Shown piece after piece: positions 11,389 to 42,393 of a DNA stretch of 46,826 nucleotides. Every line of letters begins with the position of its first letter. Position 1 is the first letter of the stretch. The notes under the pieces were generated by a model. It saw only the letters and a list, made by a program, of their open reading frames with translations, had not been told where the DNA came from and made no database searches. Position numbers and translations under genes: made by a program. The DNA comes from Thermoleophilia bacterium (lineage in GTDB: Bacteria > Actinomycetota > Thermoleophilia > Gaiellales > Gaiellaceae). The stretch lies in assembly GCA_025936995.1 (NCBI GenBank), contig JAICSH010000015.1, forward strand, positions 1 through 46,826, in the 5' to 3' direction.

Positions 11389-12096
11389 CTAGCGCGCGGC
11401 GACGATGTAGGCGAGTGCCGCGCCGTTGAAGAGCCCGTGGACGACCATTCCGGGCACGACGCTGTCCGTGCGGTCGCGAAGCCAGGCGAGCGCGATGCCG
11501 AACGGGACGAGGACGAGCAGCGCATCGACGAGACCGTGGGCCACCCCGAAGGCGACGCCGACCAGGACGATCGCCGGTGTCCGACCGAGGAAGCGCAGCA
11601 GCGACTGGCCCGCGCCGCGGAAGGTCAGCTCCTCGACGAACGGCGCGATCACGGCGAAGAGGACGAAGTTGGCGGCGAATGCGCCGGCGTGCGCCGGCTC
11701 CCAGTGGACGTCCGTGAGGCCCTGCTCCTTCCCGGGGCTTTCCGGCAAGGGCAGGTACGAGACGACGCCTTCCCAGAGGTAGATCGCGACGACGACGGCG
11801 AGGCCGAGCCAGAGCGCTCTCATCCAGCCGCGGGGCGGGCGGAGCGCGAGAAGGTCGAAGCGATCGATGGCGATCAGAAGGACGATCCCGAGCCAGACGC
11901 CGTAGATGATCGTCCCGCCGGCGAACGTCGCATACGAGTAGACCTCCTGATGCGAGACGCCGCGGCTGCCGCTCCCGTTGCCACCGCCCGAGAAGCGCGC
12001 CGCGTAGTTGGCCGCCGCGATCAGCGCGACGAAGAGGAGCCAGAAGGCCAGGCGTGTGTGGCTCGGACGCGGACGCGACTGGGCTTCTGCCTCCAC
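11389..12096 (-). CDS. CPBP-family intramembrane metalloprotease
   Basis: Polytopic membrane protein of the CAAX protease/bacteriocin-processing (PF02517) family. GTG at 12096 gives 235 residues. The three signature motifs are present: EELTFRG (EExxxR), FGVAHGLVD (His motif) and HGLFNGA (HxxxN). About six membrane segments are visible, the first being LAFWLLFVALIAAANYAA. The actual substrate is unknown. Its start lies only 25 bases from the divergent DUF2203 gene, and TATGCT (12110-12105, reverse) sits eight bases before its GTG. Confidence 0.85.
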   Translation of the reverse strand: MEAEAQSRPRPSHTRLAFWLLFVALIAAANYAARFSGGGNGSGSRGVSHQEVYSYATFAGGTIIYGVWLGIVLLIAIDRFDLLALRPPRGWMRALWLGLAVVVAIYLWEGVVSYLPLPESPGKEQGLTDVHWEPAHAGAFAANFVLFAVIAPFVEELTFRGAGQSLLRFLGRTPAIVLVGVAFGVAHGLVDALLVLVPFGIALAWLRDRTDSVVPGMVVHGLFNGAALAYIVAAR

Positions 12097-12121
12097 GACG
12101 GCCCAGCATAGGCTTCGGCCC
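12097..12121. promoter_or_regulatory. Back-to-back -10 boxes between CPBP and DUF2203 genes
   Basis: Within 25 bases separating two divergent start codons, TATGCT on the reverse strand (12110-12105) is eight bases before the CPBP GTG, and TAGGCT on the forward strand (12109-12114) is seven bases before the DUF2203 ATG. The boxes overlap at TA. Both spacings fit leaderless transcription. Confidence 0.5.
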
Positions 12122-16555: not shown

Positions 16556-16575
16556 GACTACGGTATGCCTCCGAG
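16556..16575. promoter_or_regulatory. Back-to-back -10 boxes between kinase and moeA
   Basis: Twenty bases separate two divergent GTG starts. Forward TATGCC (16564-16569) is six bases before moeA GTG 16576; reverse CATACC (16567-16562) is six bases before the kinase GTG 16555. Both are carried by the single stretch GGTATGCC. Confidence 0.5.
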
Positions 16576-33384: not shown

Positions 33385-33896
33385 TGCTCCGGTTGGAGGT
33401 CCGCGAGGGAGACATCGCGGCGATCGAGGCCGACGCGATCGCGAATGCCGCGAACGACCGCCTCTGGATGGGCGCAGGCGTCGCGGGAGCCCTCAAGCGG
33501 GCGGGCGGTGACGAGATCGAGCAGGAGGCGATGGCGATCGGCGGGATCCCGATCGGCACGGCTGTCGCGACGACGGCCGGACGGCTTCGGGCTCGCTGGG
33601 TGATCCACGGCGCGGTGATGGGCCAGGACCTGCGGACGGACGGCGACCTCGTCCGCCGCACGACGCGCGCCTGTCTCGAGCTCGCCGACGAGCTCGCGTG
33701 CCGCTCGCTCGCGCTGCCTGCGTTCGGCACGGGAGTCGGCGGCTTCCGGCTCGCGGACTGCGCGGCGATCATGGTCGAGGAGGCACGGATCTACGAGCCG
33801 AGCTCGCTCGAGCTGGTGATCTTCGCGGTCTTCGGGAGCGAGGCCTACGAGGCGTTCTCGTCGGCGCTCTCTTCGCCGCTACCGGACGGCTCGTAG
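33384..33896 (+). CDS. Macro-domain protein (ADP-ribose binding)
   Basis: 170 residues, one macro domain: EGDIAAIEADAIANAANDRLWMGAGVAGALKRAGG, then GTAVATTAGRLRARWVIHGAV and SLALPAFGTGVGGF, the ADP-ribose pocket. Likely an ADP-ribose/O-acetyl-ADP-ribose hydrolase or reader. It is translationally coupled to arginase. Its last 52 bases overlap the 3' end of convergent rarA. Confidence 0.9.
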   Translation: MLRLEVREGDIAAIEADAIANAANDRLWMGAGVAGALKRAGGDEIEQEAMAIGGIPIGTAVATTAGRLRARWVIHGAVMGQDLRTDGDLVRRTTRACLELADELACRSLALPAFGTGVGGFRLADCAAIMVEEARIYEPSSLELVIFAVFGSEAYEAFSSALSSPLPDGS

Positions 33897-35113
33897 TAGC
33901 GGCGGCCCTCGAGCTCCTCGGGGAGGTAGCTCGTCTCGAACCCCTCGGGGTCGTCGTGCGGATAGACGTAGCCCTCGCCGTGGCCCAGCCGGCGGCCGTA
34001 CCAGGAGCCGTCGCGAAGCGCCTTCGGTGGACGCGCGGCTCCGCGGTCGCGGACGTCCGCGGACGCCCGGTTCAGCGCGACGTAGCTCGCGTTCGACTTC
34101 GGCGCCCGGGCGAGGTAGATCGCCGCCTGTGCGAGATTGAGCCGCGCCTCAGGCAGGCCGACGTGCTCGACGGCCTGCGCCGCCGCGACCGCGACGAGAA
34201 GCGCGCGCGGGTCCGCGTTGCCGATGTCCTCGGAGGCGAGGACGATCATCCGCCGCGCGACGAACCGCGCATCCTCGCCGCCCTCGAGCATCGCCGCGAG
34301 GTAGTAGACCGACGCGTCGGCGTCGCCGCCGCGCATCGACTTGATGAAGGCGGACGTGTAGTCGTAGTGCGCGTTGCCGGCCTTGTCGTAGACGAGCGGC
34401 GGCTTGCGTGCAGCGTCCTCGACCTGCGTCTCGGTCACGGGGGAGCCCTCCGCCTTCGCCGTCTCCGCGGCGAGCTCGAGGATGTTGAGTGCCGAGCGCG
34501 CATCGCCGCCGGACCGGCGTGTCACGAGGGCGACGAGCTCGTCCTCCAGCTCGGCACCGAGCTCCTTCGCGCCCCGGCGCACGATCTCGGCGAGGTTCTC
34601 CTCGCTGAGCGGCTCGAGCTCGTACACCTGCGTGCGCGAGATCAGGGCCGAGTTGACCTCGTAGTACGGGCTCTCGGTCGTCGCGCCGATCAGCGTCACG
34701 AGGCCGGACTCGACGCCGGGCAGCAGCGCGTCCTGCTGCGCCTTGTTGAAGCGGTGGATCTCGTCGAGGAACAGGATCGTGCGGCGGCCCGTGGTGCCGA
34801 GCCGCTCCTTCGCGCACGCGAGCACCTCGCGCACGTCCTTCACCGTCGCCGAGACCGCCGAGAGCTCCTCGAACGCCGCGCCGGTCGAGGCGGCGACGAT
34901 CCGCGCGAGCGTCGTCTTCCCGCTACCGGGAGGCCCGTACAGGATCGAGGAGCGGACGCGGTCCTCCTCGATCGCGAGCCGCAGCGCGGAGCCCTCGCCG
35001 AGCACGTGCTCCTGGCCGACGAACTCGCCGAGGGCCGTCGGCCGCAGCCGCTGCGCGAGCGGCGCGACGGCGCCCGCCCGCGCGTCCGCGGCGTCCGAGA
35101 AGAGGTCTCCCAC
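33845..35113 (-). CDS. rarA: Replication-associated recombination protein RarA (MgsA)
   Basis: AAA+ ATPase of the clamp-loader clade acting at stalled forks. 422 residues: Walker A GPPGSGKTT, Walker B LFLDEIHRFNKAQQD, sensor 1 GATTESPYYEVN, and the C-terminal tetramerisation domain with AFIKSMRGGDADASVYYLA and SEDIGNADPRAL. GTG 35113 gives MGDLFSDA; longer readings run across the divergent methyltransferase. CATACT lies six bases before the GTG. Confidence 0.95.
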   Translation of the reverse strand: MGDLFSDAADARAGAVAPLAQRLRPTALGEFVGQEHVLGEGSALRLAIEEDRVRSSILYGPPGSGKTTLARIVAASTGAAFEELSAVSATVKDVREVLACAKERLGTTGRRTILFLDEIHRFNKAQQDALLPGVESGLVTLIGATTESPYYEVNSALISRTQVYELEPLSEENLAEIVRRGAKELGAELEDELVALVTRRSGGDARSALNILELAAETAKAEGSPVTETQVEDAARKPPLVYDKAGNAHYDYTSAFIKSMRGGDADASVYYLAAMLEGGEDARFVARRMIVLASEDIGNADPRALLVAVAAAQAVEHVGLPEARLNLAQAAIYLARAPKSNASYVALNRASADVRDRGAARPPKALRDGSWYGRRLGHGEGYVYPHDDPEGFETSYLPEELEGRRYYEPSGSGEESADENAS

Positions 35114-35134
35114 GACCGCAGTATGCTCCGCCGC
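35114..35134. promoter_or_regulatory. Back-to-back -10 boxes between rarA and methyltransferase
   Basis: Only 21 bases separate the two divergent GTG starts. The octamer AGTATGCT (35120-35127) reads TATGCT forward, seven bases before GTG 35135, and CATACT in reverse, six bases before GTG 35113. A single element thus appears to serve two leaderless transcripts. Confidence 0.55.
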
Positions 35135-35881
35135 GTGAGCGGGTCGGTCGCCGACGCCTGGAGCGGTGCGAGCTACGAACGGATCGCGGAGACCTTCGCT
35201 TCGATTCACGATCGGGTCGTCGAATTGCTCGGGATCGAGCCGGGGACGCGCGTGCTCGACGTCGCCTGCGGGACCGGCGGCGTGGCGTTGCGGGCCGCCC
35301 GCGCCGGCGGGGACGTCGTCGGCATCGACATCTCGGCCGACCAGCTCGCCAAGGCGCGGCGGGCCGCGGACGCCGAGGGTCTCCGCGTCCGGCTCGACGA
35401 GGGCGACTGCCAGGAGCTTCCGTACCGGGAAGCCGAGTTCGACGCCGTCGCATCCGCCTTCGGCGCGATCTTCGCCGCCGATCACGAGCGGACGGCCGGT
35501 GAGCTCGCGCGCGTCTGCCGTCCCGGCGGCCGGCTCGTGCTCACGGCCTGGGAGGACGACGACTGGTCGGCCGTCCATGCGAAGGCGGGACGGACGTTCC
35601 CGGGGGACTCCGGCGCGCGCGAGTGGGCGAAGGAGGAGCACGTCCGTGCCCTGCTCGGCGACGTCTTCGATCTCGACCTGCAACGGGGCGGCTGGCGCAT
35701 GGAGGCGGCTTCGGGCGACGAGCTCTGGGAAGTCGTCTCCACCTCGATGCCGCCTCTGCGGGCCTGGCTCGCGGCCGCCGACGAGGCTACGCGCACGCAC
35801 GCCGAGCACGTCTACCGCGACTTCCTCGCGTCAGGTGTCCTCGAGCGCCAGTACATCGTCGTTCTGGGCGCGCGGCGATGA
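35135..35881 (+). CDS. UbiE-type SAM-dependent methyltransferase
   Basis: 248 residues from GTG 35135; ATG 35123 would add four residues but lies within the proposed -10 box. Motif I VLDVACGTGGVALRAARAG, motif II GIDISADQLAKARRAA, then EGDCQELPYREAEFDAVASAFGA and LARVCRPGGRLVLTAWE. Substrate unknown. Followed by the M20 peptidase with ATGA overlap. Confidence 0.87.
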   Translation: MSGSVADAWSGASYERIAETFASIHDRVVELLGIEPGTRVLDVACGTGGVALRAARAGGDVVGIDISADQLAKARRAADAEGLRVRLDEGDCQELPYREAEFDAVASAFGAIFAADHERTAGELARVCRPGGRLVLTAWEDDDWSAVHAKAGRTFPGDSGAREWAKEEHVRALLGDVFDLDLQRGGWRMEAASGDELWEVVSTSMPPLRAWLAAADEATRTHAEHVYRDFLASGVLERQYIVVLGARR

Positions 35882-37185
35882 CCGCGACCACGCTCAGGGA
35901 CGAGGCCGCCGACCTCCTCCAGCGCCTCATTCGGGTCGACACGACGAATCCGCCCGGCAACGAGACCGCCGCGGCCGAGCTGCTGCGCGACTACCTCGAG
36001 GCCAACGGTGTCGCCTGCGAGCTGATCGCGAAGGTGCCGGAGCGCGCGAACCTCGTCGCCCGGCTTCCCGGCGGAAGCGGTCCGACTCTGCTCCTTCTCT
36101 CGCACACGGACGTCGTTCTCGCGGATCCGGCCGAGTGGTCGGTGCCGCCGTTCTCGGGCGAGCTGCGGGACGGGCAGGTGTGGGGGCGCGGCGCCCTCGA
36201 CATGAAAGGACAGGTTGCGGCGAACGCGGTCGCGATCGCCTCGCTCGCGCGCGAGGGGTTCGCACCGGGCGGCGACCTCATCTTCGCGGCGACCGCCGAC
36301 GAGGAGGTCGGCGACGGCTTCGGCCTCCAGTGGCTCTGCGAGGCACATCCCGACGCGGTGCGGTGCGATTTCGCGATCAACGAGGGCGGAGGCGACCGGG
36401 TCGAGCTCGACGACGGACGGCCGATCTACGAGGCCACCGTGGCGGAGAAGATGACCGCGCCGTTCCGGCTGCGCGTCCGGGGCCGCTCGGGCCACGCGTC
36501 GATGCCCGGGATAGCCGACAACGCGCTCGTCAAGGCGGCGCGGCTGATCGGGCGGCTCGCTGCATTCCGCCCGGAGCCGCAGCTCGTCCCGGAGGCGGAG
36601 GGCTTCCTCTCCGTCGTGCTCGGCGACGTGCCGCCTGCGCACGAGGCGGTCGAGCGGACGCGAGCCGTCTCGGCCGCCGCGGCCGACGTCGTCGAGGCGC
36701 TGCTCGTGCCGACCTTCTCGCCGACGATGATCTCGGCCTCGCAGAAGCGGAACGTCATCCCTGCGGTCTGCGACGTCGAGGTCGATTGCCGGCTCCTGCC
36801 CGGACAGCACCCGGAGCTCGTGGAGCCGCTGATCCGCGCGGTGCTCGGCTCGGACGTCGAGTACGAGCTCGAGTGGATCGAGCCCCCGCAGGGCGGCACG
36901 CGCTCTCCGCTCGACACGCCGCTGTGGCAGGCGCTCGCGGAGTGGGTCGCCGAGGTAGAGCCGGGGGCGAGGGCGGCCCCGCTCGCGTGCGTCGGCTTCA
37001 CCGACAGCCACTGGCTCCGCGAGGCGTTCGACACCGTCGCGTACGGCTTCTTCCCGATGACCGGCGAGCTGCCACCGGAGGTGGCGACGTCGCTCGTCCA
37101 CTCCGCCGACGAGCGCATCCCCGTCTCCGATCTCGAGCTCGCGGTCGGCTGGCTGCGCCACGCGGCGCGCGCGCTCCTCGGGTAG
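35878..37185 (+). CDS. M20-family metallopeptidase
   Basis: 435 residues of the ArgE/DapE/CPG2 family. Metal ligands and catalytic residues are seen in LLSHTDVVLADP (His, Asp), GRGALDMKGQ (bridging Asp), ATADEEVGDG (catalytic Glu-Glu) and the C-terminal FTDSHWLRE region. The dimerisation domain includes GRSGHASMPGIADNAL. It probably cleaves a short peptide or acyl-amino acid. ATG overlaps the methyltransferase stop. Confidence 0.92.
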   Translation: MTATTLRDEAADLLQRLIRVDTTNPPGNETAAAELLRDYLEANGVACELIAKVPERANLVARLPGGSGPTLLLLSHTDVVLADPAEWSVPPFSGELRDGQVWGRGALDMKGQVAANAVAIASLAREGFAPGGDLIFAATADEEVGDGFGLQWLCEAHPDAVRCDFAINEGGGDRVELDDGRPIYEATVAEKMTAPFRLRVRGRSGHASMPGIADNALVKAARLIGRLAAFRPEPQLVPEAEGFLSVVLGDVPPAHEAVERTRAVSAAAADVVEALLVPTFSPTMISASQKRNVIPAVCDVEVDCRLLPGQHPELVEPLIRAVLGSDVEYELEWIEPPQGGTRSPLDTPLWQALAEWVAEVEPGARAAPLACVGFTDSHWLREAFDTVAYGFFPMTGELPPEVATSLVHSADERIPVSDLELAVGWLRHAARALLG

Positions 37186-37192
37186 CGCCGAC

Positions 37193-37198
37193 TACCCT
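37193..37198 (+). promoter_or_regulatory. Candidate leaderless promoter of DUF1385 gene
   Basis: TACCCT lies eight bases before the ATG at 37207, in the 21-base gap after the M20 gene. Confidence 0.4.
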
Positions 37199-37206
37199 TC
37201 GGCGCG

Positions 37207-37989
37207 ATGGCCAAGGAGAAGATCCGGCTAGGCGGCATGGCCCTCCCGAACGGTGTGCTCGTGCACGGACCGCATTCGTGGGCGTGCGCGGTCAGGCTGG
37301 AGGACGGGCGGATCGAGGTCGCCTCGGCCCGGAAGCGCTTTCAGGCCTCGCGCATCGAGAATCCGCTTCTGCGCGGCCCGGCCCGCCTCCTCGAGGCGCT
37401 CGCCCTGCTGCCGCAGGTGAAGGCGAAGCTCCCTGCCGCGCGCCTGCCGATGGAGAACCCGCGCACGCTGGCGTCGATGCTCGGTGCCGCCGCGTTCGTC
37501 CGCGTCCTCCGCGAGTCGGGGTTGCGGCCGATCGCGCGCGAGCTGCTGTCCGCGATCGCCTCTGTCGCGCCCGCGGTACTCGCGCTCCGCTCGGGTGAGC
37601 TCGCGGCCTATCACGGCGCGGAGCACATCTCGATCGGGAGCTACGAGCACGGGAAGCGCGCGACGCGGGAGCACGAGCGGTGCGGCGGGCACCTCGTCGG
37701 CCCGCTCGTCGCCACGTCCGCGATCGGGAACACGCTGGCGACGCGAGCCCCCGAGCGGCTGCGGCGCCACGCGCAGGCGGCCGCGCAGATCGGCGCGATC
37801 GCGGCGGCCACGGAGCTCTTCGGCTGGATGACGCGGAACCCGTCGCATCCTCTCGCGCAGGCGCTCGCGAAGCCGGGGCACGAGCTGCAGCACCGGTTCT
37901 CGACTGCCGAGCCGAGCGCCGAGCAGCTCGAGGTCGCCGAGGCCGCGCTGGCGGCGTGCCTCGAGCTCGAGCATGCCTCCGCCGCATAG
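37207..37989 (+). CDS. DUF1385 (YqhQ-like) protein
   Basis: 260 residues. RLGGMALPNGVLVHGPHSWA at the N-terminus and the hallmark LAAYHGAEHISIGSYEHG at about 135-152 assign it to DUF1385. Hydrophobic helices flank the motif but are less membrane-like than in B. subtilis YqhQ. Function unknown. It overlaps the nicotinate phosphoribosyltransferase gene by 17 bases, so the two are co-transcribed. Confidence 0.85.
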   Translation: MAKEKIRLGGMALPNGVLVHGPHSWACAVRLEDGRIEVASARKRFQASRIENPLLRGPARLLEALALLPQVKAKLPAARLPMENPRTLASMLGAAAFVRVLRESGLRPIARELLSAIASVAPAVLALRSGELAAYHGAEHISIGSYEHGKRATREHERCGGHLVGPLVATSAIGNTLATRAPERLRRHAQAAAQIGAIAAATELFGWMTRNPSHPLAQALAKPGHELQHRFSTAEPSAEQLEVAEAALAACLELEHASAA

Positions 37990-41726: not shown

Positions 41727-41752
41727 GAGGGTGTCTTAGCATCCGGCGCGTC
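41727..41752. promoter_or_regulatory. Back-to-back -10 boxes between ndh and LOG-family gene
   Basis: Twenty-six bases separate divergent GTG starts. Reverse TAAGAC (41738-41733) is six bases before GTG 41726. Forward TAGCAT (41737-41742) is ten bases before GTG 41753, a less exact fit. Confidence 0.4.
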
Positions 41753-42211
41753 GTGGCGATCCAGGTCTCCGTCGTCGGGAGTGGAAGCGAGCACGAGTCG
41801 AACGCCGAATCGGTCGGGCGGCTCCTCGCCGAGCGCGGTGCGACGGTGGTCACAGGAGGTCTGGGCGAGGTGATGGCCGCGGCGTCCCGCGGCGCGAAGA
41901 GCGCGGGCGGCACGACGGTCGGCGTTCTGCCGGGCGAGACCCGGGCGGGCGCGAATCCCTGGCTCGACCACGTCGTGGTCACGGGCATCGGCCACGCCCG
42001 CAATCTCGCCGTGGTCGCCTCGGGAGACGCGGTGATCGCGATCGGAGGCCGCTACGGGACGCTCGCCGAGATCGGCTTTGCGCTCACGCTCGGGCGGCCG
42101 GTCGTCATGCTCGAGCCGGGCTGGCAGGTCGAGGGGACGCAGCGGGCACGGACTCCGGAGGAAGCGGTCGAGTTTGCTCTGGCAGCCTTACGGCATAGAA
42201 CGATGACATGA
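41753..42211 (+). CDS. LOG-family / TIGR00725-type protein
   Basis: 152 residues with a Rossmann fold related to cytokinin riboside-5'-monophosphate phosphoribohydrolases: VVSGSE-like N-terminus (VSVVGSGSEHESNAE), VTGGLGEVMAAASRGAKSAGG, and GGRYGTLAEIGFAL in place of PGGxGTxxE. Activity unknown for this short branch; nucleotide-monophosphate cleavage is plausible. Stop overlaps the next small gene (ATGA). Confidence 0.85.
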   Translation: MAIQVSVVGSGSEHESNAESVGRLLAERGATVVTGGLGEVMAAASRGAKSAGGTTVGVLPGETRAGANPWLDHVVVTGIGHARNLAVVASGDAVIAIGGRYGTLAEIGFALTLGRPVVMLEPGWQVEGTQRARTPEEAVEFALAALRHRTMT

Positions 42212-42393
42212 CGCACGTGCTGCTGCTCAACCTCGTCTTCTTCGTCCCGGCGACGTGTGGCGCGACGGCGTTCGCGTTCATCGTCCACCGTGTGCTCAGG
42301 AGCACGCCGCCGCCCGCGGCCTCCCCGCCCGGAGGAGGAAGCAAGATCCCGCTGCCCGCGGCAGGGCCGGACGACCTGGCCCGCTCCGCCTAG
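42208..42393 (+). CDS. Small single-span membrane protein (61 aa)
   Basis: ATG overlaps the LOG-gene stop. One N-terminal hydrophobic segment (about 3-27, LLLNLVFFVPATCGATAFAFIV) then a Pro/Gly-rich tail. No recognised family. Coupling to the upstream gene and its membrane-protein composition support it. Its TAG shares the palindrome CTAG with the stop of the convergent CGNR gene. Confidence 0.5.
   Translation: MTHVLLLNLVFFVPATCGATAFAFIVHRVLRSTPPPAASPPGGGSKIPLPAAGPDDLARSA

Follow-up and report, generated by a model that had tools for sequence, protein, structure and literature searches.

The window, the whole 46,826-bp stretch of DNA analysed here, is contig JAICSH010000015.1 of a Thermoleophilia genome; its features are collected in Table 1. 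The gene rarA and a methyltransferase gene diverge from a 21-nt spacer at 35114-35134, GACCGCAGTATGCTCCGCCGC, which is bounded by a GTG codon at 35113 on the minus strand and a GTG codon at 35135 on the plus strand. TATGCT and CATACT overlap by 4 bp in AGTATGCT, and the putative -10 boxes of the two strands thus share base pairs. The original prediction had placed these hexamers 7 and 6 nt from their GTG codons, and the sequences were as it described. The presumed -11 adenines lie on neighbouring base pairs (35123 on the top strand, 35124 on the bottom strand). CATACT is the weaker box because it carries C instead of T at -12. The 6-7 nt between box and start codon are too short for a Shine-Dalgarno sequence on either side.

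An in-frame ATG at 35123, within the octamer, is an alternative candidate start for the methyltransferase gene. GTG 35135 is the better call because in most relatives the distance to the first gene is 6 nt, which puts this ATG in another frame. Judged from its conserved N-terminal sequence (L134/L135/L139), the DUF1385 gene probably adjoins rarA in several outgroup loci. Several relatives (L031, L032, L036, L037, L038, L045, L246) showed one in-frame stop within the rarA match or at its end, probably the regular stop close to the C-terminus.

Table 1. Genes and putative promoter elements in the window
Feature	Position	Strand	Remarks
rarA/mgsA, AAA+ ATPase, replication-associated recombination protein A	33845..35113	-	Pfam MgsA_C 4e-58, AAA_assoc_2 3e-22
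-10 hexamer CATACT	35120..35125	-	would serve rarA; 6 nt upstream of GTG 35113
Shared -10 core AGTATGCT	35120..35127	both	reverse complement AGCATACT; register +1; from sequence and family conservation
-10 hexamer TATGCT	35122..35127	+	would serve methyltransferase operon; 7 nt upstream of GTG 35135
Class I SAM methyltransferase, first divergent-operon gene here	35135..35881	+	Pfam Methyltransf_25 1.7e-23
M20 peptidase	35878..37185	+	overlaps methyltransferase stop; first gene of the operon in many relatives; Pfam Peptidase_M20 1.6e-26
DUF1385 protein	37207..37989	+	next in methyltransferase-M20 operon; Pfam DUF1385 3.9e-13
Core AGCATAGGCT, ANNNTANNNT register	12105..12114	both	spacer 12097-12121; TATGCT for minus-strand gene (start 12096), TAGGCT for DUF2203 (start 12122); 7 and 8 nt
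Core GGTATGCC, second +1-register site	16562..16569	both	spacer 16556-16575; Ser/Thr kinase gene (start 16555, -) and moeA (start 16576, +); 6 nt each side
Core GTCTTAGCAT, weaker fourth site	41733..41742	both	spacer 41727-41752; pyridine-nucleotide oxidoreductase (start 41726, -) and SLOG/LDcluster4 (start 41753, +)

The genes listed by family beside the four spacers are genuine. The same design had been proposed to recur at the three further spacers of Table 1. The kinase/moeA and DUF2203 sites proved equally good, but the fourth is weak, with the forward TAGCAT 10 nt from its GTG and the reverse TAAGAC having no T at -7. Relatives retain GATGCTAG at this oxidoreductase/SLOG site, and same-genus relatives carry a core similar to AGCATAGGCT. 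An FtsH-length reading of the gene starting at 12096 was ruled out by stops inside it; the gene spans 11389-12096. A short predicted gene (42208-42393, 16 score units) overlaps the stop of the SLOG gene and ends against a minus-strand gene.

Two-way boxes and putative leaderless starts across genomes

The window's own genome is a 1.85-Mb metagenome-assembled genome (70% complete, 71% GC), of which 1.64 Mb was sampled, and 1764 genes were called with a home-made codon-usage gene finder that was blind to promoters. In this sample, TANNNT occurred at 0-0.7% of starts at a distance of 5 nt from the start codon and rose abruptly at 6 nt, where it preceded 6-10% of co-directional starts and 21% of the starts of divergent pairs with gaps of 15-34 bp. 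A position weight matrix for the -10 box (T.71 A.95 N N N T.91) was derived solely from co-directional genes; among co-directional starts preceded by a gap of 20 nt or more, about 35% fitted it. Leaderless mRNAs would show a depletion of Shine-Dalgarno sequences, and such sites were present at 2.4% of starts with a -10 box compared to 20.9% elsewhere, which fits the leaderless reading. No positional signal of a -35 element was detected in 443 one-way or 65 two-way starts.

Close divergent starts had been proposed for counting against a shuffled background, and in this genome they exceeded it by far. With gaps of 15-34 bp, TANNNT lay 5-9 nt from both starts in 22 of 57 divergent pairs compared to 0.18 in shuffles; with gaps of 16-29 bp, the matrix matched on both sides in 26 of 45 pairs compared to 0.47 in shuffles (maximum 3). 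The boxes shared bases in 25 of these 26 two-sided pairs, and only in two registers: TANNNTA (+4; 12 pairs, predicted starts 18 bp apart) and ANNNTANNNT (-1; 13 pairs, predicted starts 23 bp apart). The original prediction took the rarA-type octamer as the recurring class, whereas it is these two other registers that recur. The reciprocal -11A/-7T pairing of TANNNTA, present at those 12 other pairs, is absent at rarA, whose octamer represents a third register with predicted starts about 21-22 bp apart, close to 18 and 23 and equal to neither. Divergent pairs with gaps of 30-60 had boxes without overlap (registers -5 to -38), like separate face-to-face promoters.

It is quite possible, though the chance is somewhat below even, that two independent leaderless promoters overlap only since compact genomes crowd divergent starts, in which case the sharing would serve no function as such and the registers would repeat since base-sharing needs fewer A/T in 71% GC DNA. 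The both-side frequency equals the product of the single-side frequencies: with boxes at 60% per side about 20 pairs were expected and 22 were seen, and there was no sign of coupling between the two boxes beyond independence in divergent pairs with gaps of 15-34 bp. TANNNTA and ANNNTANNNT need four fixed bases and other overlapping registers about six, a difference that alone predicts most of the dominance of the two. This dominance is therefore for the most part what two leaderless promoters at so short a distance would be expected to show, and because the both-side frequency also matches independence, we make no claim of selection for sharing as such. Independent origin would, however, leave the mechanism unchanged, with one DNA core still serving two directions, and it explains neither the retention of the rarA core through swaps of the first gene nor the change of register in family f2 with the two-way layout kept, both described below.

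The original prediction also envisaged a count across Thermoleophilia. Patterns were counted in whole genomes, with the pattern spelled backwards as control and families designated by codes. In ten genomes of the window's family, ANNNTANNNT was found 79 times compared to 18 in the control and TANNNTA 37 times compared to 15. Family f10 of the same class was enriched in one register (ANNNTANNNT, 29 compared to 5) and family f9 weakly (64 compared to 39), whereas f5, f6, f7 and f8 of that class showed no enrichment of the registers over the spelled-backwards control, and most genomes across the phylum showed little or none. A class-wide property was rejected on families f5-f8. The two-way design is lineage-bound, not class-wide, since it is enriched in the window's family, f10 and weakly f9, but not in f5-f8, and little or not at all in most genomes across the phylum.

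Conservation of the rarA core

Of the 38 rarA loci in the window's family, 36 carry AGCATACT 6-9 nt upstream of rarA, with all eight bases fixed. The divergent operon has the layout (optional first gene)-M20 peptidase-DUF1385, and in 25 of the 34 assessable family loci TATGCT lies 6-7 nt before the start of its first gene. Across rarA loci this first gene encodes a methyltransferase, an M20 peptidase, a Trp-2,3-dioxygenase-like protein or a glyoxalase protein, and parsimony on a quick RarA tree, many of whose branches are weakly supported, gives at least 10 changes of this gene. In alignments, M20 copies from within the operon begin at the same first residue, and the start calls therefore do not simply reflect the closest start codon. 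A variable or absent first gene ahead of a constant M20 gene was seen in loci L023-L051, L243-L246 and L295 and in the window (35135-37989), where DUF1385 is next.

Outside the window's family, rarA uses other -10 sequences. In family f2, locus L135 carries AGTATAGGCT with the divergent start at gap 22, a predicted two-way rarA promoter in register -1 (ANNNTANNNT), and L134 is like it if the GTG at gap 22 is the start. Two-way function would thus be kept in f2 with a different register.

Two-way use alone fails to explain the invariance of the octamer, because the octamer is retained where the divergent first gene starts far off (L023, L027, L132); positions G2, C3 and C7 are also invariant, though required by neither -10 box. 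In L023 and L027, about 70 bp of extra DNA lies between the unchanged octamer and the methyltransferase gene, which starts 65-89 nt away and apparently has a TAGGCT box of its own. The fixity may stem from recognition of the octamer by a further factor, or from a box of unusual weakness in which no change is tolerated.

An extra factor, either a regulator or a special sigma factor, could also bind the rarA octamer and define a small regulon around rarA; we consider this unlikely. It would account for the eight fixed bases, as no one octamer is retained at the window's other divergent pairs (at best 5 of 28, 9 of 25 and 6 of 25 relatives), and for the retention in L023, L027 and L132. Second copies of AGCATACT, each flanked on either side by a start codon at 6-7 nt, occur away from the rarA contig (G020:C11:3450-3476 and G022:C1:7570-7595) and point the same way. 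Against an extra factor, AGCATACT occurs once in the 1.64 Mb of the window's own genome and is thus not a general operator there, so that its role as a regulon operator in this genome was rejected. The octamer is also placed exactly at -10 spacing on both sides, and no conserved sequence was found further upstream of the rarA core among family loci, at a -35 or an operator-half position. About nine copies of AGCATACT were expected in the 1.64 Mb from base composition, so this -10-like word is depleted outside rarA. The generalized pattern AGYATRCT was counted 33 times in the family compared to 10 in the control, with about 19 of the 33 at rarA; as a general class it was rejected, the family counts being near the control once rarA sites were removed. 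This register is essentially rarA's own plus the kinase/moeA site.

It is considerably less probable still that the octamer is a promoter of rarA only, with TATGCT a by-product and the divergent gene transcribed from inside rarA. Such one-way use would fit L023 and L027, which keep the octamer with a distant methyltransferase start, but not the start codons of unrelated first genes at 6-7 nt from TATGCT in most family loci, nor L050, where the same TATGCT is followed by a 26-nt leader with AAGGAGG. The latter arrangement is consistent with a transcription start at the same place and a normal ribosome site. Chance or misannotated start codons, conceivable with a home-made gene finder and the many alternative start codons of high-GC genomes, can be dismissed on the shuffle, spelled-backwards and conservation controls.

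A probable two-directional leaderless core at rarA

The data suggest, with high probability, that the octamer is a bidirectional promoter core of the housekeeping sigma factor without a recognisable -35 element and that both mRNAs are leaderless. At the level of sequence, this reading is carried by the spacing, the genome-wide excess, the shared registers and the conservation. RNA polymerase with the housekeeping sigma factor would most likely bind the core in either orientation (TATGCT on the top strand, CATACT on the bottom strand), because the -10 box is nearly symmetric. Transcription in each direction would begin at the start codon itself or within one base of it, and both mRNAs, that of rarA included, would therefore be leaderless. 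The rightward product would be the methyltransferase-M20 peptidase-DUF1385 operon and the leftward product rarA. The compact two-way promoter with two leaderless mRNAs, recurring in the genome as originally predicted, is thus favoured by the spacing, the Shine-Dalgarno depletion and the excess of two-sided pairs over shuffles. Divergent genes at short distances commonly show this design in the lineage, mostly as TANNNTA and ANNNTANNNT, with the rarA register rarer.

Steric geometry would allow one polymerase at a time on the core, with weak competition between the directions at ordinary activity. Two polymerases would be unable to bind at once, yet mutually exclusive expression, as had been proposed for rarA and its neighbour, does not follow and found no support: in E. 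coli, the basal activity of all five bidirectional promoters tested was too low for competition, and one direction repressed the other only when strongly activated (PMC12825309). A functional pairing of rarA with one neighbour is unlikely, because the first neighbour has been swapped among unrelated families. A further reading, which we rate as less likely than not, is that across the family the octamer is invariant for two-directional leaderless use and that newcomer first genes were selected to place their start codon exactly at the pre-existing transcription start; recognition of the octamer by an additional protein, which may also occur, would account for the fixed positions required by neither -10 box.

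The rarA locus amounts to a natural experiment in which the promoter stays constant through repeated replacement of the gene on one side, and the first codon of the newcomer usually falls at an unchanged distance from the -10 box. The locus makes testable whether one common core couples or decouples two unrelated genes. Known bidirectional promoters came to light through mapped RNA starts. Provided that both mRNAs are leaderless, the spacing of the start codons alone reveals the promoter and its register, and two-way promoters become countable in thousands of uncultured genomes from sequence alone.

Comparison with known systems

Leaderless genes of Actinobacteria and Deinococcus carry TANNNT 6-7 nt before the start codon (PMC3160421, PMC3898074). 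The genome analysed here resembles them in motif, spacing, missing -35 element and the fraction of genes concerned (about a quarter to a third), although those works concern single genes. At the rarA site, TATGCT at 7 nt from the methyltransferase start fits the actinobacterial rule, and CATACT at 6 nt from the rarA start has the T at -12 replaced by C. The available portion of the M. tuberculosis paper among these works reports that close divergent promoters are common, with the prpD/Rv1129c pair having two leaderless mRNAs, and that portion describes no shared core for divergent pairs. Separate face-to-face promoters share the divergent orientation and the short intergenic space, but their -10 boxes do not overlap.

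Bidirectional promoters with a near-symmetric -10 element were described in E. coli, Salmonella and other bacteria by Warman, Grainger and co-workers; their common start spacings are 10, 18 and 23 bp, of which 18 and 23 are dominant, and TANNNTA, with -11A and -7T reciprocally paired, is the commonest, not the sole, arrangement (PMC12825309, PMC10268837). Here too, one -10 core would be read on both strands, and the 18- and 23-bp registers recur, in this case from start-codon spacing. The rarA core, with its 21-bp register, lies outside the 10, 18 and 23 bp of those promoters. Unlike in those promoters, the transcription starts here appear to coincide with both start codons. By its sequence features, the class corresponds to the known bidirectional promoters, in a putative leaderless variant.
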